Positions 6,601 to 23,391 of a stretch of DNA of 26,338 nucleotides are shown in pieces. The stretch is from IMG/VR virus record IMGVR_UViG_3300020171_000117, positions 1 to 26,338 of that record; one strand, given 5' to 3'. Under the pieces are notes generated by a model. It searched no databases and was not told the origin of the DNA. It saw only the letters and a program-made list of their open reading frames with translations. The position numbers were made by a program, and so were the translations under genes. The stretch's first letter is position 1. Each line of letters starts with the position of its first letter. Origin of the DNA: a virus.

Positions 6601-7308
6601 TTCAAATATCAATCCCATTTCTGTTAGTGCCGCTGTAGCTTCATCAGTTCCTTTTACTAATTGAACCATTGCCATCCTTAAATTTCTACCTGCCATCCCA
6701 CCCTGTAAACCGAGATTGGCAAATTGAGCAACGGCAGCAGTAGTTTGTTCAATAGACCATTCTAAAGCAGATCCAGTTGTGCCAGCAAATTTCATTGCTT
6801 CGGTTAATTTTTCCATAGTTAATTGTGATTTAGTTATTGCAGCAGCATATGTATCAGTTATTCGTCTTGAATCTTCTGCATCTAAGCCGAACTGTTTCAT
6901 TGATGATGCTAATAATCCAGTAGCTTGTGTCATTTCAGATCCTGTTGCCCCTGCTAATTTCATAGCATGTTCAACACTATCAACTATTTGACGGGTATTC
7001 ATTCCGGCAGAAGCAAGATCATACATTCCTTCAGCTGCTTGAGTAGCAGTAAAGGCAGTAGTTTTTCCTAATTCTCTTGCTTTGTTTTCTAATGCTTCTA
7101 AATCTTTGCCAAACGCTCCTGCAACTGTAGCTGTTTCTGTTAATGCTTGTTCAAATTTACCACCTACTAAACTAACAGCAGTTATAGCAGCAGTAAAAGC
7201 AATCGCCATTTTTTTAGCAGCAGAACTGGCTATATTACCAGCTTTTGCTAATCCACTTTTAAAGCCAGTAAGATCAGCTCCAATTCGTACAAGCATTGAC
7301 TCATTCAT
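3691..7308 (-). CDS. Tail tape measure protein (1205 aa)
   Basis: It sets tail length and is packed inside the tail tube. The N-terminal 300 or so residues match the TP901-type tape measure domain, with FEQALTETATVAGAFGKDL, KTTAFTATQAAEGMYDLA and GLQGGMAGRNLRMAMVQL. Hydrophobic helices follow around residues 380-480. A charged Ala/Lys-rich helical part lies about 570-680, and another hydrophobic segment about 790-860. The C-terminus has GGIFSGPESGYPVVLHGTEEVIPL-type sequence, a common ending of tape measures. The ATG overlaps the preceding chaperone frame stop as TAATG, with AAAGGT just upstream. The length would give a moderately long tail, roughly 0.15 nm per residue by the usual rule. Confidence 0.93.
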   Translation of the reverse strand: MNESMLVRIGADLTGFKSGLAKAGNIASSAAKKMAIAFTAAITAVSLVGGKFEQALTETATVAGAFGKDLEALENKARELGKTTAFTATQAAEGMYDLASAGMNTRQIVDSVEHAMKLAGATGSEMTQATGLLASSMKQFGLDAEDSRRITDTYAAAITKSQLTMEKLTEAMKFAGTTGSALEWSIEQTTAAVAQFANLGLQGGMAGRNLRMAMVQLVKGTDEATAALTEMGLIFEQINPETNTFGEILTTIGEKSITTKQAVAIFGSESGLNMKKLAQAAVSGESDFAGFVDMLKESQKGVGRTAEMYARMMDTFQGQWKVMLSAMQELAISVFDLFKTQGKEVFIYLAEKINDFANVIKKNEDEIKKVLKTIGDAFYSVSSIIIDGVGLAWEAVKFTWDAVTDLWALFSAVPSGVITFFTNVADETKKATEEINNLNKAISEVEVPPQTSFQEFWNFMGQWGEDIINVFVYLGKSIGGTFGVMVSDAIATVKMIGEQFVNLGTLIWNALSFNFSGAANILANFGETNKKYVAEMETNWTAYTETIFSAWDKMMSDIKSGMNKTKELVIEDIEAIAKKNTEAALEIAAKIKVSFLEQVKAAAKAAVEKKKILDDEVKDVEDTEDAKAKAIKDAAKAAKQLAADRATAARNMLKDMGGSSRDYFKAEQTLIDAQRDAYMELYKDEANDHKVSVKDKAAIDAWYVDQVEKNNDKMLLSNGTWVDGFKLGIKDMNEATKTWAEKGKEYAEDIADSYNNAVKTIVDTWIRGEDVKVKASELAKDMIVDLAGKGATALYNAAIDQIIAVIGPYIGLGTASSSTQGDTVAAKLGYGAAYLAGAIALMAGAKHVAKEFKAQGGWIENHPMGGIIQQGSRTKDDVYLGQTPGINHWGMGGEYVINQKSTNKYFDLIKAINEDRLCNGGPCGKKYAEGGTVTDWRPVADDLQEAGLTTFLKGWYDGGIYQGIKDAVTYYIGVVMSSYGGKKWGDDLLFEKGGQIGNKNVGYGWNSIIGDVIDDTVDYFVESEVKDEASGMIGGGIYDILNWVFDFIDYTNPQWGEIFGDCYTRLTSPTKIWEDVKGTLATTIKPFVVSLLTPNDYTAYTSKAWDDWGKGFKDYYEDSWSDCLGGKDGGIFSGPESGYPVVLHGTEEVIPLNNKQSQSRAGNTININSIITIEAGATLIADENTFNDFVEKVDDRLKKLQRWGY

Positions 7309-7538
7309 TATTTGCTACCTTTATTTTTTCTCATTGCCTCTATTCTCTTTTCTGCAAAAAAATTATCTCTTCCTCTTTTCATTTCATCAAATAAATACCA
7401 CTTTATTTGCTCATCTTTTGATAGTTCTAAAAATTTTGAATGACTACAATGTAAATATTCTGAACAGATCTGCATTTCAACGTATAATGGAGTTAATGTT
7501 TTAAAATCAGGATTTTCCCCTCTTTTGTTCAACCCCAT
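7308..7538 (-). CDS. Tail assembly chaperone, frameshift extension (T part, 76 codons)
   Basis: This short frame sits between the first chaperone frame and the tape measure, where lambda has its G-T pair. Its ATG at 7538 has no ribosome binding site. The frame is open upstream across the end of the gene at 7541 and is in the -1 phase to it. I therefore read it as the extension made by -1 slippage at 7547-7553, giving a fusion of about 250 residues (171 + 3 + 76). The sequence is charged and helical (EYLHCSHSKFLELSKDEQ), with a basic tail. In lambda, G and GT bind the tape measure and recruit tube subunits. Its stop overlaps the tape measure ATG. Confidence 0.7.
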   Translation of the reverse strand: MGLNKRGENPDFKTLTPLYVEMQICSEYLHCSHSKFLELSKDEQIKWYLFDEMKRGRDNFFAEKRIEAMRKNKGSK

Positions 7539-7540
7539 TT

Positions 7541-8059
7541 CTATTCTAAAAAACTTTCTCTTTCTTGTTCAGACCATTTAGTCAATGATGTAATATCGGT
7601 TATTATTTGGCCAAAATGATCGCCACTCATTTCCATACTTTTTAATATTTTAATTTTTTCCTGACTATCTGTTACCTCTTCGCCTTTTTCGTTTTTTATT
7701 GGGACGGCTATCCCTTTCATAAGGATTGCTATTCCTAAATTTGAATCATGTTCTTCTTTTGCCCTGAGGTATTCTGGGCAATTAAGATCAGGTATTTTCA
7801 TCCATTTCTTTTCTACTAATTTCATTTCTTTTCCAATTGCACTATCTGGAGTTACCAATTCATTTTTTATTGGTGGTATAGGAGCTTTTTCTTTATACGT
7901 ATCAATAAGTTCAGAAATTCCAGTTGATTTAATCGGTATTTCCAAGCAAATTATTTTGCCTTCTTTTGTAACTTTCACCTTACTAACTCCATGAGAAGCA
8001 AATACATTTTGTCCACTCATAAACTCGGTAATCTTCTGCGTTTTAATTTCTTCTGCCAT
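7541..8059 (-). CDS. Tail assembly chaperone (G-like, 172 aa)
   Basis: It lies between the tube genes and the tape measure, the usual place of the tail chaperone. The sequence is acidic-basic and helical, without membrane or enzyme motifs. It includes KVTKEGKIICLEIPIKSTGI near the start and EIKILKSMEMSGDHFGQIIT near the end, consistent with a non-virion chaperone. AAAGGA precedes the ATG by six bases. The last codons carry the T TTT TTA slippery site, so part of the product should be extended into the frame at 7308-7538. The call is by gene order and frameshift, not by a sequence hallmark. Confidence 0.7.
   Translation of the reverse strand: MAEEIKTQKITEFMSGQNVFASHGVSKVKVTKEGKIICLEIPIKSTGISELIDTYKEKAPIPPIKNELVTPDSAIGKEMKLVEKKWMKIPDLNCPEYLRAKEEHDSNLGIAILMKGIAVPIKNEKGEEVTDSQEKIKILKSMEMSGDHFGQIITDITSLTKWSEQERESFLE
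7547..7553 (-). other. Programmed -1 frameshift slippery site T TTT TTA
   Basis: The minus strand in the zero frame of the gene at 7541-8059 reads AGT TTT TTA GAA TAG. T TTT TTA is a perfect X-XXY-YYZ slippery heptamer, three bases ahead of the zero-frame stop. After a one-base slip the new frame reads AGA ATA GAA ATG and enters the 76-codon frame that ends at the tape measure. Position, phase and missing ribosome binding site of the second frame all agree with the G/GT frameshift of siphoviruses. Confidence 0.8.
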
Positions 8060-8082
8060 TAATTTTCCTTTCTTTTTTAATA

Positions 8083-8658
8083 TTAAATCGCTGTATATCC
8101 AGTAGAAAAACTTGAAATTCTGGTTACATCACCATAGCATTGGCCATTTACAGATAGTGTTAAGCCGTCTGCTGATTCTGATATGGATTGTTCGCCAGCC
8201 GGCAAATAAACTTCTTCATATCTATAACCTAAAGTAGTTGAACTTGCTATCCATGCTATTTCCAATCTATAAGCGTATTTTGCAGTATTATCTGCAAAAT
8301 TAGGTAATGCTACTCCATCAATCGAAGTTTTACTTTTAAAACTATATAATTGAGTTGTCCCACTAATTTTAGTTACTCCACTTATCCAATCACTTAATAC
8401 TCTGGTATTTGTAGTATCCGCCAGCTTACATGAAAATGTAACTGGTAGTGGAGCATATCTTGGGTCATCAACTCCTTCAACATAATGAGCATCAGTATCA
8501 AACTGACCTCTATTCATAATTAGAGTTTCAGCCGTTCTTGGCCTTGAAGTAGGGCCAGAAAAATTCATTTCACAAAATAAAACTTCGAGATATCTTGTTG
8601 TTCCATTTAATCCAAATTCTGCTATTCTTAATTCACCATCTTTACCTTGTAATAACAT
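8083..8658 (-). CDS. Major tail tube protein, copy 2 (191 aa)
   Basis: It starts MLLQGKDGELRI and shares with its upstream neighbour an identical block running from about EVLFCEMNFSGP to PVTFSCKLADT, plus the C-terminal GEQSISESADGLTLSVNGQ. Only the segment before the core and the middle (about residues 85-150) differ. The strand-rich fold, position just ahead of the chaperones and perfect AGGAGGTGAT ribosome binding site (high expression) all fit a tube protein. Having two full copies suggests either two tube subunits or one tube and one tail-tip/decoration variant. Which one forms the tube cannot be decided from sequence. Confidence 0.7.
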   Translation of the reverse strand: MLLQGKDGELRIAEFGLNGTTRYLEVLFCEMNFSGPTSRPRTAETLIMNRGQFDTDAHYVEGVDDPRYAPLPVTFSCKLADTTNTRVLSDWISGVTKISGTTQLYSFKSKTSIDGVALPNFADNTAKYAYRLEIAWIASSTTLGYRYEEVYLPAGEQSISESADGLTLSVNGQCYGDVTRISSFSTGYTAI

Positions 8659-9210
8659 TTATATCACCTCCTGTTAAATAAATATTGCTATACTTGCTCC
8701 ACTATAGAAAGCGGTTATACGAGTTACATCACCATAGCATTGGCCATTTACAGATAGTGTCAAGCCGTCTGCTGATTCTGATATTGATTGTTCTCCATGT
8801 TTAAAGCAGACTTCTTCCCACCTATATCCTAAATCATTACTTGACCCATCCCACAACACTTCTACTCTATAACTTCTTTTGTTTGGATCTGCAAAAGAAG
8901 CCAAAGTATTTCCATCAATCGTAGAAGAGCCATCCCATGAATAAACTACACTTGATGCGCTTGCTGTATTAGTAACCGTAACTCCTCCAACTCCTTCGGC
9001 AGTTAGCCAATCCATTAACATTGTTGTATTAACTGTATCCGCCAGCTTACATGAAAATGTAACTGGTAGTGGAGCATATCTTGGGTCATCAACTCCTTCA
9101 ACATAATGAGCATCAGTATCAAACTGACCTCTATTCATAATTAGAGTTTCAGCCGTTCTTGGCCTTGAAGTAGGGCCAGAAAAATTCATTTCACAAAATA
9201 AAACTTCGAG
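8414..9210. repeat. 176-bp perfect direct repeat shared by the two tube genes
   Basis: Positions 8414-8589 and 9035-9210 read identically, base for base, as far as I can compare by eye. A second nearly identical block covers about 8125-8200 and 8724-8799 (a 38-bp perfect run with a few changes around it). The DNA between the blocks differs. Identity including third codon positions points to recent duplication or ongoing gene conversion. Confidence 0.9.
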
Positions 9211-9297
9211 CCAATAAGTAGTTCCGGAAGGGTCGCTTCCTCTAATAGCTCCTTTTTCATATATTCTTAATTCACCATCTTTACCTTGTAGTAACAT
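8674..9297 (-). CDS. Major tail tube protein, copy 1 (207 aa)
   Basis: This is a paralogue of the gene at 8083-8658, 15 nt upstream, with the same N-terminal core and C-terminal motif and a longer, different middle (GGVTVTNTASASSVVYSWDG). The N-terminus carries an extra seven or so residues (IRGSDPSG). GAGGTG lies seven bases before the ATG. The shared core is identical at the DNA level over 176 bp, while the centre is unrelated enough that only structure would align it. It follows the small helical gene at 9310 and the tail terminator. The role is as for its partner: tube subunit, or a variant that decorates or ends the tube. Confidence 0.7.
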   Translation of the reverse strand: MLLQGKDGELRIYEKGAIRGSDPSGTTYWLEVLFCEMNFSGPTSRPRTAETLIMNRGQFDTDAHYVEGVDDPRYAPLPVTFSCKLADTVNTTMLMDWLTAEGVGGVTVTNTASASSVVYSWDGSSTIDGNTLASFADPNKRSYRVEVLWDGSSNDLGYRWEEVCFKHGEQSISESADGLTLSVNGQCYGDVTRITAFYSGASIAIFI

Positions 9298-9499: not shown

Positions 9500-9979
9500 C
9501 TATGGTTTATTTGTTTCTCGCGTATAACTTAGCTCAAACGCAATTATATACTGATATAATGTTTGGGCTTCAGGCATTGGGCTATCATTAACAATATCTC
9601 TAACTTTTATAATATCTAATTGCGAACTGTCACCTATATAATGTTTTAAATTTATAGATTGCCCAATACCAAAATAATTTGCTATTGTATCTCTAATGAC
9701 ATAATGTCTATCGCTAACTGTAACTCCAGATTTTTTTACAAATATATTTACCTGAAATAATACATCGCTAATTTCTCCATATTTACTTGAACTTGCTTGT
9801 CTTGCATAAACAGAACTTATATCAAGTATTCTTGGTTGCACCCATTCACTAACAGCAGTATCGTCGAAAGGGACTCCTTCCCAATTAATATTTAATCCTT
9901 CTATAGTATAAATAGTATCATAGAAATATTTTTCCAATGATCTTTTTAAATTAGTTGCTGATGCTTGAGTTAAAGCCAT
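9500..9979 (-). CDS. Tail terminator / tail completion protein (159 aa)
   Basis: It lies directly after the HK97-gp10-like gene and before the tube genes, the normal place of the tail terminator. The sequence has a short N-terminal helix (TNLKRSLEKYFYDTIY), then strands and two helices with VLFQVNIFVKK and DRHYVIRDTIANYF, ending in YQYIIAFELSYTRE. This alternation fits the small alpha/beta fold of terminator proteins that cap the tube and join it to the head. AAGGA lies 11 bases before the ATG. Family-level identity is inferred mainly from gene order. Confidence 0.65.
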   Translation of the reverse strand: MALTQASATNLKRSLEKYFYDTIYTIEGLNINWEGVPFDDTAVSEWVQPRILDISSVYARQASSSKYGEISDVLFQVNIFVKKSGVTVSDRHYVIRDTIANYFGIGQSINLKHYIGDSSQLDIIKVRDIVNDSPMPEAQTLYQYIIAFELSYTRETNKP

Positions 9980-9994
9980 TTATACTATTTTCCT

Positions 9995-10462
9995 TTAAAA
10001 ATTAAATTTATTCCATTCTTTTAAAAATTCATCTGATAATTCTTTTGGCATTTTATTTCGTCTTTTTCTCATACTAATTCTAACCATGCCGGCGGGAGCT
10101 TGTTCTTTACTACCGCCATATTCCAAAAACATAATATAATGAACACTGTTAATCATATCTACATATTTAGAAAAAGTTCCTTTTGTTTTATCTATAAATT
10201 TTCCTTCTTTCTTTCCTTTTTCTACCCCGCTACCACTTCCTAAATCAAAATTCATTCCAAGACCAACAATAGATGGGTACCAAGCCCCACGAGCCCGCCC
10301 TGTATCAACAGGATGCCTCCCTTTTGGAGGCGGTTGTAAAATATCGGCTAATAAATCAAATGCCATGTTCTTAATAACTATTTCTGTAGCTAAATCACTT
10401 TTTTTAATAAAATTTTTCAAATCTCTATTAAATTTTGCTGTTTCCATTTTTAATGTTATCAT
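9995..10462 (-). CDS. HK97 gp10-like head-tail / tail completion protein (155 aa)
   Basis: The motifs PVDTGRARGAWYP (about residues 50-62) and YIMFLEYGGSKEQAPAGMVR (about 108-127) are hallmarks of the HK97 gp10-like family, which completes the neck or tail joining. I start it at the ATG 10460-10462 rather than at the TTG at 10492. The ATG has AAGGAAGGG upstream and forms an ATGA overlap with the preceding stop, whereas the TTG lacks a binding site and would overlap the previous gene by 31 bases. The protein is basic overall. Confidence 0.85.
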   Translation of the reverse strand: MITLKMETAKFNRDLKNFIKKSDLATEIVIKNMAFDLLADILQPPPKGRHPVDTGRARGAWYPSIVGLGMNFDLGSGSGVEKGKKEGKFIDKTKGTFSKYVDMINSVHYIMFLEYGGSKEQAPAGMVRISMRKRRNKMPKELSDEFLKEWNKFNF

Positions 10463-10869
10463 CAACAAACCCTTCCTTGCAAAAAGTAGCAAATATTTAA
10501 AGGATCTCTATTTATACTTTTTATTTGATATGTAGTTGCACTTTGATAAATGGAATTTGACTCAACTATCATATCATCAACTGATAATGTCCCTGAAACA
10601 GAAGAAGTATCTAAAATAAATTTGACATCTCCCATCTCTATTAATCCGCCTGATTTATCTATTTCATCAAGTAAATAACTTCCTTTAAAACTTGCCACAG
10701 ATGATATTGTATACATATCTGGAATAATTCCAGTTGTTGGATTCCATGTACTAACAGTAGCTCCAGACATTTTATAAGTTATTGTCGTACTTATTACATC
10801 ATCCCCAATAATATCCTGTATATCTAATCTAATACTATCAATTTCAGATTGAGTTAATATTGATACCAT
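10462..10869 (-). CDS. Head closure / head-tail joining protein (135 aa)
   Basis: A small beta-rich protein in the neck block. It has YKMSGATVSTWNPTTGI, SFKGSYLLDEIDKSGGLIEMGDVKFIL and TTYQIKSINRDPLN. Such alternating strands with 'G-D-x-x-F-I-L' are typical of head-closure (SPP1 gp16/HK97 gp7-like) proteins that bind under the connector. It ends in the three consecutive stops TGA TGA TAA, and the first TGA overlaps the next ATG. Upstream, its frame is continuous with the connector gene except for a TGA at 10876-10878. The name is by gene order and fold pattern. Confidence 0.65.
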   Translation of the reverse strand: MVSILTQSEIDSIRLDIQDIIGDDVISTTITYKMSGATVSTWNPTTGIIPDMYTISSVASFKGSYLLDEIDKSGGLIEMGDVKFILDTSSVSGTLSVDDMIVESNSIYQSATTYQIKSINRDPLNICYFLQGRVC

Positions 10870-10875
10870 TTTTAA

Positions 10876-11247
10876 TCAGACCCCAATGTATTCGCTTTTA
10901 TCTGTGCCAATGCTGCTAATATCATAATTCATAGAATCAACATATTCAACGGCATCTATCCCTGACCTTGAATCAAAAATTTTAGCAAGAGACATATAAT
11001 ATTCTGCTTTTTTCGTTTTATCTAAAGAAATATCGCCTTTACCAAGACCAAGTTTAATTGCTTCTTTTGCATATTTAGCGGCTAATGATCGGCAACAATC
11101 AGCAGCAGACGCCCAAAGATCATCACTATTCTGATCTAATATTGCTGTAAGTTCTGCATCTTCAAAAACATAATCAGTAGATGTAACATCGTTTACAAGG
11201 GTTCGTAATAATCCTTCTGAGGTCGAGGCATCATGGGTAAAAGCCAT
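10876..11247 (-). CDS. Head-tail connector (HK97 gp6-like) protein (123 aa)
   Basis: This helical protein has the pattern TSEGLLRTLVNDV...YVFEDAELTAILDQN, then DLWASAADCCRSLAAKYAKEA and KTKKAEYYMSLAKIF. It matches the connector-adaptor family: 'L-R-x-L-x-N/D-D', 'F-x-D-x-E-L-x-x-x-L', then an Ala-rich helix. These proteins form a ring under the portal. AAAGGA precedes the ATG by seven bases. It stops with TGA and is followed six bases later by the ATG of the head-closure gene in the same frame. Confidence 0.75.
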   Translation of the reverse strand: MAFTHDASTSEGLLRTLVNDVTSTDYVFEDAELTAILDQNSDDLWASAADCCRSLAAKYAKEAIKLGLGKGDISLDKTKKAEYYMSLAKIFDSRSGIDAVEYVDSMNYDISSIGTDKSEYIGV

Positions 11248-11250
11248 TTT

Positions 11251-11487
11251 TTATTCCTTTGTTTTTTTCAATATTCTTTTCTTAGATTCTTCACCGTCCA
11301 ATAAAATTTTTATTTCTTTAAGTTCATTCAAAATAGCCAGATTCGCATATACACTTAAAATAGATAATGTATTACTTTTTAAATGCAATTGCTTTGTTGC
11401 TGCAAGAAAATTGTTCATAAAAGCTTTATTATTTAATAGTTCTTCTACTTCAGGAATTTGAAATTTCTTAAAAATACTTTCTGCCAT
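11251..11487 (-). CDS. Small helical phage protein of unknown function (78 aa)
   Basis: It has a strong GGAGG nine bases before its ATG and sits two bases after the gene ending at 11490. The sequence is helical, IPEVEELLNNKAFMNNFLAATKQLHLKSN, followed by a leucine/alanine helix (ILSVYANLAILNELKEIKILL) and a basic tail. There is no enzyme, zinc or membrane motif. Its position between the capsid-side small proteins and the connector suggests a virion or assembly role, but I do not recognise the family. Confidence 0.6.
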   Translation of the reverse strand: MAESIFKKFQIPEVEELLNNKAFMNNFLAATKQLHLKSNTLSILSVYANLAILNELKEIKILLDGEESKKRILKKTKE

Positions 11488-11489
11488 TA

Positions 11490-11765
11490 TTAACTTCCTC
11501 CATTTTGTTTCTTTATAGCGATTGGAATTTTAGCCGCCCCTACTTGTACAATTTGCATATTGGGAGTAATTTCTTTAGGTGATAAAAACATTTTATTCTC
11601 TAAATCAAAAACCCAGTCTAAAGGAATATTCATTTTTAACTTCTCGCTAAGAATAATATTGACTAAGTTTGCTTCTGTTGTCTGAATAACTGATTTTAAA
11701 TTCTTAATTTCTGATTGATAAAAAGCAATTGCATTAATTCCTTCTGCTGTAACTTGTTTTGACAT
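11490..11765 (-). CDS. Small phage protein (91 aa) that is the C-terminal part of the fused frame
   Basis: Inside the long frame at 11490-13595, codon 611 is an ATG preceded at seven bases by a perfect AAGGAG (11773-11778). Translation from here gives a 91-residue protein: MSKQVTAEGINAIAFYQSEI, then a helix, then IPLDWVFDLENKMFLSP, and a short Gly-ending tail. The helix-then-WxFDxEN pattern looks to me like small phage proteins of head-neck regions. The Wzy domain upstream needs no such tail. I therefore think this is an older phage gene with its own start that became joined in frame to an inserted gene. Both the free and fused forms could be made. Confidence 0.6.
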   Translation of the reverse strand: MSKQVTAEGINAIAFYQSEIKNLKSVIQTTEANLVNIILSEKLKMNIPLDWVFDLENKMFLSPKEITPNMQIVQVGAAKIPIAIKKQNGGS

Positions 11766-13595
11766 AATTCTTCTCCTTGGAAATGGCGCAAGATGCCATA
11801 TTTTTTGTAATTCAGCTTTAGCGGCATCAAATAATGGATAAAAAAATAATGAATCCTTAAAAAACCTAACTGCATCTTCATATTGTTTATTTGCTACTTT
11901 TGCTATTCCACTGTTTAAAGCCATCACCCATGCCGGAGTCATCCCATCAAAATGTTGCCTCATAGATTCTGCATGTTGATCTGCTTCATTTGGAAAAGCA
12001 TCTATATATCCAATCATAGCATGTGTTCTAAATATTGTATCTTTTGGACAATAAGTTAATGCCTTTTGCAAATATCGTTCTTTATTAATTGCTACTGATG
12101 AAAAACTGTAACATCTGAAATAATAATTTCCTAAATTTGGTTTTATTGACCCTTCCCATATCATCGCCGACAAAGCCAGTAATACAAATAACACTAAAAT
12201 AAAATTACTTTGAAAACTTATTAATTCTATACTTCCGGTAATTCCTTCAATCATAGCTAAACCAATCCATATTGCTAATACAGATGAAGAAAGTCTTAAT
12301 GGAAAGAAAAAGAAAACATTAACGAGAACTCCTATGATACCAGAAAGAACTCCACTAATTAAAACGAAATCTTTTATTGAATTAACATTGCATAAAAATT
12401 CAAAGCCATGAAAAAATATAATAAACAAAATAACTAAAAATAATAATCCGCCTGTAATTCCGCCTTCAACAAAATTTTCTATAAAATCATTATGACATTC
12501 CCTCGGCTGTGGTGTTTGATAATTTTTTCCAAGAAATTGCCCATCTTTAGCATGTAATACTCCTTGTGCATAATATACTTCTTTTCTATATGTTCTTAAT
12601 CCGTAGCCTTGTAATGGTTTCTTTTTTATCAATTCCCATGCAGCTCTCCAATATCGCAATCTATATCTTAAATGAGCAATTGGATGATCTTGATGAGTAT
12701 GTTCTATGTCTAAATGCGTATTTATTCTACATTGCTTATTTGATAATATTTTTAACGGATTGATTCTTCTTACTTTTAATAAAAAATGCAGTCCAATAAA
12801 TAAAACAAAAGACAATAAAGCTAAAAACAAATGCATTGGCAAATTAGCAAATAATACAAAGCACGAATCAAAAACCAATCCTCTGAAAGAAATTAAAAAT
12901 AAGAAAGATAATATTGAAATTACTATTGCTAATATTGCTGCCCTACATTGAGTACATATTATAGCTGAAACTAAAATCATAATAGACAACAAAAACCAGA
13001 TTGATATTTCTACTGTTAAAAATATTAAAAATGGCAATGCTGATAAAAAATAGCCTGCTGCAAAATTAGTGTTTCCCAAACTCGATATTGATCTACTGTC
13101 TATAAAATTCTTATTATAAAAAAATGTTGGTATTTGTTCTTTAGTCTTCCCTTTAAAATCTTCTGTTCTTGATTTTACTCTTTCTGGAAATAAAAAATCT
13201 ATCCTAAACTTTTGTCCAATTGCATATATGGAAGTTATCATTGAAACAAAAAACACAGATAAACTTACACCAACAATATTACTAAAATTTTTAAACAAAT
13301 AGCTTGCAATTATAAATCCAAATATTGAAACAAATATTAACGGTACGTCTCTTAACGAATTATGTGGAACTGTTGACCATGAACAGCTCATCATTAAATA
13401 CAAAAAATATAAAAGAGCCAAAACACTTGTTAAATTTATTGGAAAAAATCCATTACTAATAAAAAATATTGTTGTTAGACTTATACCGATCGCTGCTATT
13501 CCAATTTGTGGTAAAATATATCCATCTAAACTTTTTAAAGGACAAAAAACTAATGGTGAAATTATTAATGTTAAACATAAAAATAATAAATCCAA
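11490..13595 (-). CDS. O-antigen polymerase/ligase (Wzy/WaaL-like) with TPR, fused to small phage protein (701 aa)
   Basis: It starts at a TTG (13593-13595) with AAGGAG five bases upstream. There are about a dozen hydrophobic membrane segments between residues 1 and 475. Family motifs: SISSLGNTNFAAGYFLSALPF (about 169-189, part of the typical 'G-N-x-N' loop), RYRLRYWRAAWELIKKKPLQGYG (about 310-332) and PRECHNDFIENFVEGG (364-379), containing the His-Asn of the Wzy_C/O-antigen-ligase family. A helical repeat part (about 500-600, TPR-like, 'KQYEDAVRFFKDSLFFYPL') follows, then a separate phage protein from codon 611. Such enzymes polymerise or ligate lipid-linked O-units at the inner membrane. 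It lies between virion genes, which is a very odd place, and probably was acquired. Confidence 0.85.
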   Translation of the reverse strand: MDLLFLCLTLIISPLVFCPLKSLDGYILPQIGIAAIGISLTTIFFISNGFFPINLTSVLALLYFLYLMMSCSWSTVPHNSLRDVPLIFVSIFGFIIASYLFKNFSNIVGVSLSVFFVSMITSIYAIGQKFRIDFLFPERVKSRTEDFKGKTKEQIPTFFYNKNFIDSRSISSLGNTNFAAGYFLSALPFLIFLTVEISIWFLLSIMILVSAIICTQCRAAILAIVISILSFLFLISFRGLVFDSCFVLFANLPMHLFLALLSFVLFIGLHFLLKVRRINPLKILSNKQCRINTHLDIEHTHQDHPIAHLRYRLRYWRAAWELIKKKPLQGYGLRTYRKEVYYAQGVLHAKDGQFLGKNYQTPQPRECHNDFIENFVEGGITGGLLFLVILFIIFFHGFEFLCNVNSIKDFVLISGVLSGIIGVLVNVFFFFPLRLSSSVLAIWIGLAMIEGITGSIELISFQSNFILVLFVLLALSAMIWEGSIKPNLGNYYFRCYSFSSVAINKERYLQKALTYCPKDTIFRTHAMIGYIDAFPNEADQHAESMRQHFDGMTPAWVMALNSGIAKVANKQYEDAVRFFKDSLFFYPLFDAAKAELQKIWHLAPFPRRRIMSKQVTAEGINAIAFYQSEIKNLKSVIQTTEANLVNIILSEKLKMNIPLDWVFDLENKMFLSPKEITPNMQIVQVGAAKIPIAIKKQNGGS

Positions 13596-13622
13596 ATTAT
13601 CTCCTTGTCTATCTTTAGTAAT

Positions 13623-14628: not shown

Positions 14629-15705
14629 TTAACTTGTACATTTATATACATGTTTAGAATCCACAGCAGTTATTGCACCATAGAAACGACACTTCATTCT
14701 TGCTTTAATATCCCGCTTGAACTCATCATCGTGTCCTGGTCTTTGTGCGATTGTCTGTAATGGCCATACTTCCATCCACCAGAAATCTCTTTTAAAATTG
14801 CCCCAATACCAAGTTGTACTTGACTGCTTGGTTACATAAGGACTTGAAAGAGGCAGAAATCTACTTTTAAAATAGTTTTCTGCATTTTCTGCTGATTCTG
14901 GAGTTTTAGTAGAATTAGCCATCTGCCACATTTCTACCTGAAGATCACTTGGCCCCAATACAACCAGATTATTCATATCAATATATATATAATCTGCATC
15001 ATCTGCCCCAAGAGAATCATCCTTCATCAACTGTGCTTTCTTCAATACTTCTTCTAATCCAGATTCACCAAAAGGGTTACTTGCTACAAGATTTCCATTA
15101 GCGGTAGAATAAAGAGCTGTTGCAACTCCTGAAGGATTCCATACATTAGTATTAACATCTTGGATTCCCTCTATAATGAGTTTTTCTCTATACTGTGCTA
15201 ACTTCTCACCAACCCCTCTTGCTCTAATAAGTACCTGACCTGTTTTATCGAAATAAATCATTTCTTCTGTGACATCTATGATTCTACCATATTTCTTGTT
15301 ATCGGCAGTTACATATTTTTCAGTCATTGTAGAGCTATCATATTCCTGACCTTCTCCTACTTGATCTGGTGATTCAGGAGTTGATAATCCTGCAATAGTT
15401 TCTTTTTGAACATTACTCGAAACGGTAGTTACAAGTTGGTCACCAATTTTAACTACAGAATCATATCCTTCGATTAATTTTGAGTTGATTAACGCTCCAG
15501 TAATTTTTGGGAATGCACTTGATGCAATTGCTTCATGAACGTTTGCCCCATTTGTGCATGCTTCCCATATTTCTTTAAGAGAAAAATCTTCTGCTCGAAG
15601 TTTCTTTGACTCTATGGCTTTACTTATAACTATTTGCGCTCCGTCTTCTCCCTTTGCTTCTAATAAATCTTTTAATGCTGTTCCAGTTCTATTTCTAAAA
15701 GACAT
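14629..15705 (-). CDS. Major capsid protein, HK97 fold (358 aa)
   Basis: The protein has the length and look of a HK97-fold capsid. It has a helical N-terminal part of about 80 residues (LKDLLEAKGEDG..., SLKEIWEACTNG) and an E-loop/strand region with QVGEGQEYDSSTMTEKY. The A/P-domains include the spine helix around GESGLEEVLKKAQLMKDD. It ends in FKRDIKARMKCRFYGAITAVD, the usual strand and 'D-x-K' C-terminus of these capsids. The ATG follows AAGGGGG at eight bases. Upstream are scaffold-protease and two paralogous accessory proteins; downstream a hairpin. Residues 1-80 may be the delta domain removed by the protease; I see no clear cleavage site. Confidence 0.9.
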   Translation of the reverse strand: MSFRNRTGTALKDLLEAKGEDGAQIVISKAIESKKLRAEDFSLKEIWEACTNGANVHEAIASSAFPKITGALINSKLIEGYDSVVKIGDQLVTTVSSNVQKETIAGLSTPESPDQVGEGQEYDSSTMTEKYVTADNKKYGRIIDVTEEMIYFDKTGQVLIRARGVGEKLAQYREKLIIEGIQDVNTNVWNPSGVATALYSTANGNLVASNPFGESGLEEVLKKAQLMKDDSLGADDADYIYIDMNNLVVLGPSDLQVEMWQMANSTKTPESAENAENYFKSRFLPLSSPYVTKQSSTTWYWGNFKRDFWWMEVWPLQTIAQRPGHDDEFKRDIKARMKCRFYGAITAVDSKHVYKCTS

Positions 15706-19539: not shown

Positions 19540-20247
19540 TTAGCTTTTATTTTCTTTTATAATCATAGCATCACAAAATCCATATTTTCTTCTTTCCAAA
19601 ATTTCTAATGGAATTTTATCTTTAGCTATATTATAGATAATTTTTTTTCTTTGGAATTTATCAACTTTTTCTGATAAAGGTATTTGAGATAAAAGTAAAA
19701 TTAAGTTAGAATCAATATATGGAAGTAATACTTCTATATCATTTGAATTTCTATTAAGTGGTTCTAATTGTTTTTTTTGTAATTTCCTAATAAATTTATA
19801 ATATGTTTTTTCATTTGGATATTTCATATGTTCGTAATAGCCACCAGTAAATTCATCTATTCCATCACACGCTATTATTTTTTTAATTTTTTTCAATTTT
19901 AAATTATTATAAAACATTCTTACAATTTCGTCTCCTGAACAATCATTCTTAAGTCTTTTAGGAATTTTACGAGGAGTATATATTTCTCCTTTTACTTTAA
20001 AATAATTTATTGCTATATTGGAATAAATATAATCGGGATGTTTTTCATTTAATGCAATTGTAAAAGTCTTAATATTTTTTCTAAATATTTTTGTCATGAA
20101 GTAGAGCATTAAAGATGAATCAACTCCTCCAGATAATGCTAAACAATTACAATTTAATTCTTTTATAATTTGTATTAATTGTTTTTCTATATCAATTAAA
20201 GTAATTTTTATTCCAATTTGTTTCCAATTTATAGGATATGTAATCAT
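19540..20247 (-). CDS. Asparagine synthase-like PP-loop ATPase (235 aa), inserted in head genes
   Basis: The PP-loop LALSGGVDSSLM (about residues 36-47) binds ATP and releases pyrophosphate. CDGIDEFTGGYY (127-138) matches the AsnB 'G-x-D-E-x-x-G-G-Y' element. LPYIDSNL (175-182) and LERRKYGF (217-224) match the later AsnB motifs, so this is an asparagine-synthase C-terminal domain of slightly reduced size. The N-terminal glutaminase domain is missing; it would have to use free ammonia or a partner protein. The stop of the portal is three bases upstream and the Mu F-like gene starts two bases downstream, without good ribosome binding sites. The Lys/Ile-rich composition is like its neighbours. 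The substrate is unknown. Confidence 0.85.
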   Translation of the reverse strand: MITYPINWKQIGIKITLIDIEKQLIQIIKELNCNCLALSGGVDSSLMLYFMTKIFRKNIKTFTIALNEKHPDYIYSNIAINYFKVKGEIYTPRKIPKRLKNDCSGDEIVRMFYNNLKLKKIKKIIACDGIDEFTGGYYEHMKYPNEKTYYKFIRKLQKKQLEPLNRNSNDIEVLLPYIDSNLILLLSQIPLSEKVDKFQRKKIIYNIAKDKIPLEILERRKYGFCDAMIIKENKS

Positions 20248-20250
20248 TAT

Positions 20251-23200
20251 TTATTTATCTTGATCCGACCATTTAGTTTTTTTAACACTCGCCAATCCCC
20301 ATAACACAGCATATTCTATTTTATTTATTTCTTTAATTTTAACTTTAAACCCATTGTTTAAATGATCATAAACAATTTTTGGCATTTTACTTATATCTTC
20401 AATATCTAAAACGTGTTGAAAAATCTTTCCATCTTTAATATGTTTTTGTTGAAATTTTATTCCTTTCATATCTTTTTTTTCATATAATTCACAATGATGC
20501 AAAATTTCCATTTCACTTTCTTTTTTAGGTTGATGCATATGATGAATTAAATATATCCAATCTTGTTCCGCTAAAAGCTTTTCTGCTTCTTCTATATTTA
20601 ATATATCAAAATCATATTTATGTTCTTTCAAAAGATTTTTTATATTTTCTTGTAATCCAAGAATTTTTGTTTTAGATATATTTTTTTCTATATTTTCTTT
20701 TGATTTTATTATCTCAATCAGATCATTGAGTTCTTTCTGAGGAATGCCACCAATATTCTCGCATATTTTTATAATTTTATCATAATCTTCATTATCTATT
20801 GCTTCATTTAACTCGTTATTACTGCCATACTGATTTATTGGAGAAACAGGCATATTAAAAGGCGATTTGAATTGATTGCCTCCGATTCCTCCAGTAAATT
20901 CGTCGTCATCTTCCCCTTCCATATTACCTTTTTCTATATCGTAATCCAACCCCATTTTAGCATCCCATGTTCTTTTGGAAACAGCCTTATATTTAAATAA
21001 AGTCTCATATGCTTTGGCCAATTTATCCAAATCAGCCTGAATCATTGGAGGAAATTCTACTCGACAAGTAGTTTTTGTATCTTCTGGCAAATCTCCATAT
21101 TTTATTTTATTATTAATTACTTTTTCAACTAAATCTTCATAAAAACTTGCAAAAAAATCTTGCCAGTCTTCAATCTCTCTAACCCATGGATTTTGTGCAA
21201 TTAATGATGATGAGTAATTTGCATTCGAGTTCCCCGATATTAATATTCTGCCTTTTCTTCTTGTAACCAATAATCCATTAGGAACTGTTGCACACCAAAT
21301 ATTGCCATTATAATTTATTTGTTCTATATTCTTTCTTAAAACCATACAATTATGTCCGTCACTTATATTTACATATTTGACACTATCTCCGAAATCTTTT
21401 GTTTCGACATTAAGACTGCTTGTTGTATGATAACCCAATTCAAAGGCAAGTCTTTGAACATCATTAACTAATCTTAATGAATTACTATAATACCGTCGAA
21501 ATGTTCTTTTTACTTTATCGCTATCTTCTTTATAGTCAGATCCATCACCCTTTATCAATGTATCTAATAATTTTTCTTTCAATTCGGTTGAAAGAGCCCA
21601 AACAAATTCAGGTAATTTTTTATTCCTACTTCCAACACCACAATTTGTTCTTAACCAAGAAGCTAGCGCTTGATCATAAGTTCTCCAATAACAAGCAATT
21701 TCATTTCCTATCCCTAAATTTTCATATTCTTTATATTTAAAATCAAAAGGAAGCTCAGAAATTAATTTTTTTATTTCATTCACATTCTCTTCATTTTTAT
21801 AAGTTTGACAAATATTAACGTGCCCACTTTTCTTATTGACAGATCCTTCAGATACAAACCATCCAATAAATTCTATCATTTTATCAATTCGGATAAATCT
21901 ATCTTCTTCTTTATTTGTTCCTTCTATTAAATGTTTTGTCTTTTCTGGATAATCATATTTTGTTATACAAACATACTCGTTATTTTTTTCTTCATTTTCT
22001 GCCGGTTCGATAAAATTCCTTATTGAAGAGAATTTAGTTCTCCATCCTTTATCTGAAGTATCTCCTAATGTGCATTTTGTAAAATTATCAATACCTCTAT
22101 CTTGTCTATATATAGGGAGTTTATGAGAACTTTCTGAACGCAGCCACATATGATGATTTTTTGTTACTAAAAAATTAAGTCTATTTCCTTCAAATAAAAA
22201 TGCTCTGCCATTATATTTAGAAAAAACCCAATTAATTGGGTTTTGATATTCTAATTTCCCATTTTCTTGACTTACTGTTCCAAGTTTAAAACCAAATTTA
22301 TATGCTTCTAATGAATCCATAAATCCATGATCTGTTAAAATTTCAGTTTCCGTATCATGACAGTAATCGGCTGTGAATATCATTTCAGGCATTCCAACAG
22401 CAGCCGCAATTGATAATAACATTGCTCTACCATCTTCGCCTACATCAGACGCATTTATATTTGGTGAAAGCATCTCATAACTTATTCCTTTACTGGCTGT
22501 AAGCACCGTTCCTCTTGCAAACATTTTCTGCTTTTTTCTATCCTGTGAATGTCTTGTACTGATATTTTCATCTCTAATACTTCCTATTTTTCCAACATTG
22601 CCTTCAACCTTTCTTATTAACGCAATAGCACTTCGGATTTTATTCAATACTATTCTATCTTCAAGCCATTCATCATATTGTCTTATTCTTTTTGCGCATA
22701 CTCTGAGAATAGAAATACCTCTTTTTTGGTCTGAATCAGATAATATTTTAATATGTATCATGTTATTTGCAGAAATACTTTCCTGAAAATCACCATTCAT
22801 ATTAACCTTATAATATTTCAGTGGAGTTTCAATATCATCTGATTCAGTTTCTATACCATAGCTAACTTTATCTGTAAGAGTTTTATCTTTGGGATTTGCA
22901 ATACTATTTGCCCGTATAAATCTTATTTTAGTATCTCCGTTTTCCTCATCAACAAAATCTCTTAAAAAACATTCTCCGTCTCTGAATGTTCTTACTGCTA
23001 TTTCTTTTTCTCTAAGATTGAATTTATTTATTCTTTTAAATCCATTCCATGCTTCCTTAACTTTCTCATTCTCGTCATCAAATATAATTTGTGGCCCTTT
23101 CCCCAAAACGAATTTAACCAATCCTCTTATTATTGCTCTTGCATGTGGGTTATTATGATATAATTTATAAGCGGACAGCAGCATATCCTGATGATTATCT

Positions 23201-23391
23201 TCTGTTCCACTAAAGCCGCTTGAATCAGAACCACCTATTAAAAACCAGTCTTTAGCCAACTCATCATCAACTACAGCGTTACTTACTTCAAGAACATCAT
23301 TCATCATTTTTATAGATGCTTCATATTCCTTAATTTTTAATCCACTCTCTAATTTTTTCAATTTTAACTTATCTTTAAAAATATCAAACAT
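20251..23391 (-). CDS. Portal protein interrupted by an intein (1046 aa; 668 aa after splicing)
   Basis: Residues 1-343 and 722-850 form a lambda-type portal. The N-terminal part has AYKLYHNNPHARAIIRGLVKF and FRDGECFLRD, the middle RGISILRVCAKRIRQYDEW and IAAAVGMPEMIFTADY; after the intein come SNANYSSSLIAQNPWVREIE and the stem part. It forms the ring through which DNA enters. The intein splits TADY from SNANYSS, a conserved site. After residue 850 an unusual C-terminal extension of nearly 200 charged residues follows (KIFQHVLDIED, EYAVLWGLASVKKTKW) that I do not recognise. AAGGA lies seven bases before the ATG, and a 34-bp repeat lies 55 nt further up. Confidence 0.92.
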   Translation of the reverse strand: MFDIFKDKLKLKKLESGLKIKEYEASIKMMNDVLEVSNAVVDDELAKDWFLIGGSDSSGFSGTEDNHQDMLLSAYKLYHNNPHARAIIRGLVKFVLGKGPQIIFDDENEKVKEAWNGFKRINKFNLREKEIAVRTFRDGECFLRDFVDEENGDTKIRFIRANSIANPKDKTLTDKVSYGIETESDDIETPLKYYKVNMNGDFQESISANNMIHIKILSDSDQKRGISILRVCAKRIRQYDEWLEDRIVLNKIRSAIALIRKVEGNVGKIGSIRDENISTRHSQDRKKQKMFARGTVLTASKGISYEMLSPNINASDVGEDGRAMLLSIAAAVGMPEMIFTADYCHDTETEILTDHGFMDSLEAYKFGFKLGTVSQENGKLEYQNPINWVFSKYNGRAFLFEGNRLNFLVTKNHHMWLRSESSHKLPIYRQDRGIDNFTKCTLGDTSDKGWRTKFSSIRNFIEPAENEEKNNEYVCITKYDYPEKTKHLIEGTNKEEDRFIRIDKMIEFIGWFVSEGSVNKKSGHVNICQTYKNEENVNEIKKLISELPFDFKYKEYENLGIGNEIACYWRTYDQALASWLRTNCGVGSRNKKLPEFVWALSTELKEKLLDTLIKGDGSDYKEDSDKVKRTFRRYYSNSLRLVNDVQRLAFELGYHTTSSLNVETKDFGDSVKYVNISDGHNCMVLRKNIEQINYNGNIWCATVPNGLLVTRRKGRILISGNSNANYSSSLIAQNPWVREIEDWQDFFASFYEDLVEKVINNKIKYGDLPEDTKTTCRVEFPPMIQADLDKLAKAYETLFKYKAVSKRTWDAKMGLDYDIEKGNMEGEDDDEFTGGIGGNQFKSPFNMPVSPINQYGSNNELNEAIDNEDYDKIIKICENIGGIPQKELNDLIEIIKSKENIEKNISKTKILGLQENIKNLLKEHKYDFDILNIEEAEKLLAEQDWIYLIHHMHQPKKESEMEILHHCELYEKKDMKGIKFQQKHIKDGKIFQHVLDIEDISKMPKIVYDHLNNGFKVKIKEINKIEYAVLWGLASVKKTKWSDQDK
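21229..22362 (-). mobile_element. LAGLIDADG intein in the portal gene (378 aa)
   Basis: The intein runs from Cys344 (codon 22360-22362) to Asn721 (21229-21231), followed by Ser722 as +1 residue. Block A is CHDTETEILTDHGF; block B is VTKNHHMW (409-416). The two endonuclease motifs are FIGWFVSEGS (508-517) and LLDTLIKGDGS (608-618). Block F is IWCATVPNG (698-706), and block G ends ISGN with Gly in place of the usual His. Removal restores the portal sequence TADYSNANYSS exactly. With both endonuclease motifs intact it may still home. The Trp-Cys pair in block F is like class 3 inteins, yet Cys1 is present. Confidence 0.93.

Follow-up and report, generated by a model that had tools for sequence, protein, structure and literature searches.

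A gene for a membrane enzyme of the O-antigen ligase kind, fused in frame to a small soluble segment, stands among the virion genes of an uncultured phage, which raises the question of whether the locus encodes one protein, two proteins from one frame, or an enzyme recently inserted before an older phage gene. The window, which is the whole IMG/VR virus record IMGVR_UViG_3300020171_000117 of 26,338 bases, carries on its minus strand a standard tailed-phage operon in the order terminase, portal (with an intein), Mu-F, decoration proteins, capsid, Wzy_C gene, Hc1, Neck1, possible tail terminator, and tape measure. An earlier note on this DNA had placed a Wzy/WaaL-family gene inside the virion operon, and this is borne out; from that location, late expression appears likely. 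The features of the interval, from the capsid gene downstream, are as follows.

14629..15705, minus strand: major capsid protein, the upstream boundary of the conserved interval (Pfam Phage_capsid_4, 3.4e-21)
13601..13606, minus strand: Shine-Dalgarno (SD) sequence AAGGAG of the long frame, five bases before TTG 13595 (sequence)
11490..13595, minus strand: long frame of 701 codons with a TTG start, encoding a 13-helix WaaL/PglL-superfamily membrane enzyme, a TPR domain, and a tail
12435..12986, minus strand: Wzy_C domain, residues 204-387 (Pfam, E 3.8e-17)
11790..12092, minus strand: TPR-type helical domain, residues 502-602 (profile search, AF2 helices, Foldseek TPR matches)
11773..11778, minus strand: internal SD sequence AAGGAG, seven bases before the internal ATG, its position kept in 14/15 homologues
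11490..11765, minus strand: nested in-frame gene starting at ATG codon 611, with a predicted 91-residue product (long helix and beta hairpins)
11251..11487, minus strand: small gene of 78 residues separating the nested gene from the connector genes, found in several relatives
9500..11247, minus strand: connector genes, the downstream boundary of the conserved interval (PHROG matches)
10876-11247, minus strand: adaptor-position protein without a name, within the connector block
10462-10869, minus strand: Hc1 (PHROG match)
9995-10492, minus strand: Neck1 (PHROG match)
9500-9979, minus strand: possible tail terminator (PHROG match)

Elsewhere in the operon, the portal gene of the window (20251-23391, minus strand) is split by an in-frame intein that contains a LAGLIDADG domain, and the portals of two relatives, L006 and L008, match on both sides of the intein and have no insert. 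An asparagine-synthase-type (PP-loop) gene lies between portal and Mu-F (19540-20247, minus strand), with homologues in a similar general region at L042:4729-5451 and L044:1646-3562. Mu-F is 359 residues long in the window and exceeds 1100 residues, with large extensions, in L012:1-4263, L010:876-4361, and L060:12559-18000. The capsid gene of L008 is split into two frames (7995-8639, 8676-9095), and ORFs resembling homing endonucleases come after the capsid gene in L008, L037, and L010. Adjacent near-duplicate tail-region proteins (window 8083-8658 and 8674-9297, minus strand) occur in one to three copies in relatives.

The membrane enzyme of the long frame

The frame opening at TTG 13595 had been read as a Wzy-family membrane protein followed by a TPR-like region, and Pfam, a profile search, and an AF2 model all confirm this reading. 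In most homologues, an SD-like stretch and an ATG, GTG, or TTG occur at the position equivalent to the long-frame start. A search with the Wzy_C family (PF04932), as the earlier note had suggested, matches residues 204-387 at E 3.8e-17 with a score of 62.9 bits, above the PF04932 cut-off of 31.7 bits that eight relatives also exceed. The AF2 model of the long protein, built from 11 homologues (pLDDT 80.8, pTM 0.74), has WaaL (7tpg_B) as its best PDB match in Foldseek (probability 1.00, TM 0.60 on the target), with TPR proteins next, and a TPR profile search against consensus TPR proteins gave a best E of 8e-15 over residues 559-597. R218, R310/R312, and H368 are invariant across the enzyme family and, as assigned by motif and spacing, stand at the places of R215, R288, and H338, the key residues of WaaL (PMC3643930); the catalytic Arg, Arg, and His of the Wzy_C/WaaL-PglL superfamily are all present. 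The long frame encodes, with near certainty, a genuine member of this superfamily, and the enzyme is probably active.

WaaL O-antigen ligase (PF04932; PDB 7tpg) agrees in fold and in the two key Arg and the key His, whereas the phage enzyme has in addition a further last helix, the TPR domain, and the tail, and is phage-encoded within a virion operon. NCBIfam provides no name for the long protein of the window, and Wzy_C by itself cannot tell WaaL from PglL (PMC3643930). Acceptor specificity is not readable from the sequence: the PglL_A signature is absent, and WaaL specificity is likewise no more than putative. A hydropathy count gives the long protein 13 membrane crossings. With 13 helices, the N-terminus inside, and the catalytic loops outside, the TPR domain and tail would also lie outside the membrane, which suggests a periplasmic C-terminus.

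A predicted nested gene with its own start

Codon 611 of the long frame is an ATG (positions 11765-11763, minus strand). The earlier note had credited the last 91 residues with this ATG and with an AAGGAG seven bases upstream; both are there, and the segment looks like an independent translation unit. Looking at the tail separately, as that note had also proposed, gives a predicted folding unit but no family. Modelled alone, the tail reaches an AF2 pLDDT of 91.7 as a 39-residue helix with two hairpins, and the linker at the internal start (residues 605-612) is the flexible point of the long AF2 model. Searches of Pfam, PHROG, and, by Foldseek, PDB-fold and viral-fold libraries returned no relative of the tail and hence no similarity behind the label of head-neck protein that it had been given; the neck and connector genes are separate and lie downstream of it (9500-10869).

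At the junction, the DNA of every homologue combines a start codon with an SD-like stretch. Of the 15 homologues, which go down to roughly 27% identity, 14 have ATG, GTG, or TTG at this alignment position together with an SD match of five or more bases, against a background of the same SD match at 24 of 661 (3.6%) other in-frame start-type codons. When the alignment was scanned column by column, 10 of 11 sequences had a start and SD (at least five bases) at one single column, the window being offset one residue earlier; across the approximately 750 columns scanned, at most one sequence had a start with SD elsewhere, except for two at the neighbouring column. Three homologues (L055, L038, and L044) were fetched after the pattern had been noticed, and these three of the four late-fetched or held-out sequences have the start and SD, while the fourth (L005) has a four-base SD match. 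RNA folding also tends to be weaker at the internal start site than elsewhere in the gene (mean percentile 0.26).

Could the pattern be a by-product of protein sequence? In such a case there would be one product only: the tail would form the enzyme's C-terminal domain, and a basic linker rich in Arg, Lys, and Gly, whose codons are purine-rich, would account for the purine run that resembles an SD and for the Met after it; for some sequences the probability of an SD given the protein is indeed high (0.3-0.7). Against this, the linker residues vary while the nucleotide SD stays, being encoded through RRR, KKG, NRG, RER, GGR, and GGG in different relatives. Sequences that lack Met at the start position have Val or Leu there, and the codons are GTG, GTG, and TTG (3/3), while no other Met column shows the combination of start and SD. 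When codons were redrawn from the usage of each gene while the proteins were kept unchanged, the joint P for all 14 came to about 1e-8, a value that overstates independence since the homologues share ancestry. At 15-47% identity, the tail lineages are unlikely to share the pattern through short descent, and independence is incomplete. A single product is thereby left improbable. By comparison of the homologues (14/15), the internal start and SD are not due to chance, and the internal start is very likely used for translation, so that the gene would yield two translated products, the short one predicted.

The locus has the kept internal SD and start codon and the shared stop of an in-frame two-product gene. 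Its nearest precedent is found in the two-polypeptide phage endolysins, in which one gene with an in-frame internal start and a shared stop gives a separate C-terminal product (PMC9430671). The coding arrangement is shared, whereas those endolysins are soluble lytic enzymes and the phage gene encodes a polytopic membrane transferase and a short product whose predicted fold has no known relative. No description of such an arrangement was found in the open-access papers searched, which is not proof of absence.

Age of the enzyme-tail unit

Fourteen further homologues reaching the tail were fetched. Thirteen contigs, counting that of the window, cover the whole interval, and each has the gene, complete with tail and in one orientation, between capsid and connector genes; the contigs of relatives without the gene end too early to judge. 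Capsid and enzyme trees agree on one deep split with 100% support in both. These are uncultured phages with genomes of roughly 100-112 kb. INPHARED contained no phage with the enzyme and only two capsid matches, to archaeal viruses, at E 7e-4. For host assignment, the sole GTDB match with the phage operon was L027, on a 111-kb contig in a Planctomycetota MAG; this contig reads as all phage and may therefore be mis-binned.

The earlier note had proposed that an older head-neck gene had the Wzy gene inserted just ahead of it and joined to it. This proposal gains from the tail folding separately and having a start of its own, and from an outgroup, L046-L053 (capsid approximately 35% identical), that spans the same interval without the enzyme. 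However, the outgroup also lacks the tail, the small proteins in its interval bear no resemblance to the tail, and the tail has no likeness to head-neck proteins. No free-standing homologue of the tail was found in viral contigs (queried with the tails of the window and L022), in a tblastn search of INPHARED, or by an HMM of the tail over all ORFs of the loci fetched up to that point, and the small gene without its Wzy part, for which the earlier note had suggested a search of related phages, did not appear. Constant fusion in related phages was named in that note as grounds for dropping the proposal; since the tail is fused in every relative reaching it, the insertion idea fails and a recent insertion is very improbable. 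Five cellular homologues (Omnitrophota, Bipolaricaulota, Sumerlaeota, and others) have no tail, which removes the other objection the note had foreseen, that the tail might belong to host Wzy proteins. Since the outgroup has neither part, the enzyme-tail unit arose at or before the ancestor of the clade; judged from these sequences, it is long established in the clade and no recent insertion.

The outgroup holds GT2-type glycosyltransferases in the slot of the enzyme instead. One or two such genes lie among the head and connector genes, in that slot and near Hc1 (L046:8981-9613; L047:5358-5987, 6777-7451; L049:3725-4435; L050:9268-10005; L051:10485-11144, 11503-12201; L052:9274-9948, 10835-11539).

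Sugar genes and proposed role

Genes for NeuB (sialic-acid-type) synthases occur in six of six clade contigs longer than 50 kb (five from IMG/VR and the L027 contig), and CMP-sugar transferase and DegT aminotransferase genes are also present in all five of the IMG/VR contigs. One of these five, L045, belongs to the clade by its capsid alone; the locus stops short of the enzyme slot, and the contig has no Wzy_C match. The 111-kb L027 contig (L057-L061) carries NeuB, the CMP-transferase, DegT, a PseB-type dehydratase, and glycosyltransferases; by eye, its nonulosonate cluster includes HisH/HisF/WbpG-like genes. The 26-kb contig of the window does not cover the NeuB-type genes. Neither a Wzx-type flippase (PF13440) nor an initiating transferase (PF02397) was found in the phage contigs.

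In the proposed mechanism, the first product would be a polytopic WaaL/PglL-superfamily membrane glycan transferase, probably made late, that moves a lipid-carried glycan onto an envelope acceptor. The surface of the infected cell would thereby be changed, for example by masking a receptor, either to prevent superinfection or to keep progeny from sticking to debris. Given the NeuB synthases encoded by the clade itself, the sugars made by the phage are probably nonulosonic (sialic-acid-like) acids, though this co-occurrence does not establish such a sugar as the substrate of the enzyme. The host would probably supply the initiating transferase and flippase, as neither searched family was found in the phage contigs. 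The second product would be a soluble helix-hairpin protein of about 80-105 residues, translated from the internal start codon with its SD, that acts alone in the cytoplasm or partners the C-terminus of the first product as in two-polypeptide endolysins. Were the C-terminus periplasmic, the fused tail would be kept apart from the cytoplasmic short product, a point against an endolysin-like complex.

Phage enzymes of the Wzy class offer a functional comparison. The Wzy of phage D3 changes the O-antigen and blocks superinfection, and the Wzy-beta of phage epsilon15 carries a Wzy_C domain (PMC4815439). The Wzy-beta enzymes of D3 and epsilon15 are likewise phage-encoded and act on lipid-carried surface glycan, whereas their genes belong to lysogenic conversion units and the gene described here is fixed among head and connector genes and fused to the TPR domain and tail. 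In every relative that covers the interval it lies between capsid and connector genes, which is not the location of a lysogenic seroconversion unit.

An enzyme acting as a PglL-like protein O-oligosaccharyltransferase on phage or host proteins, and not on LPS, would fit the C-terminal TPR domain, the common superfamily that Wzy_C alone leaves undivided, and the similarly placed motifs, with the invariant G-N-x-N recalling Q178/N180 of PglL and G-x-G (330, 332) recalling G316/G318 (PMC3643930). However, Pfam gives no match to the PglL_A family (PF15864), a Phe stands at the PglL E404 position (a correspondence drawn by eye), and the active site should face the periplasm while virions assemble in the cytoplasm; protein glycosylation of this type is thus unlikely. 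A part in lysis, in which a late membrane protein sequesters lipid-carried intermediates and weakens the envelope, would suit the lysis-type genes that lie, by eye, between capsid and enzyme gene in several relatives (peptidase, lysozyme, amidase, and coiled-coil membrane proteins). The enzyme gene of the window lacks neighbours of this type, the catalytic residues are invariant, and the phage-borne sugar genes point to synthesis, which makes lysis hardly credible. Given those sugar genes and the known phage Wzy enzymes, surface-glycan remodelling during productive infection is the most likely role, and surface remodelling as the role may be given an even chance. The best explanation as a whole, a kept two-product gene for a late glycan transferase and a small soluble protein, is moderately favoured. 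It is put forward more tentatively, as a possibility, that a late membrane glycan ligase with its tail outside the inner membrane, together with a free cytoplasmic copy of that tail, joins sialic-acid-type surface remodelling, with sugars built by the phage, to virion assembly or to lysis timing.

Lysogenic conversion is the setting in which O-antigen enzymes of phages have chiefly been described. A fixed virion-operon enzyme in NeuB-carrying phages suggests that surface remodelling may be part of productive infection. The nested gene is of a kind that usual annotation would miss, and its kept internal start makes the short product a sharp, testable prediction. If the prediction holds, the one-gene, two-protein arrangement of endolysins would be extended to a polytopic membrane enzyme.
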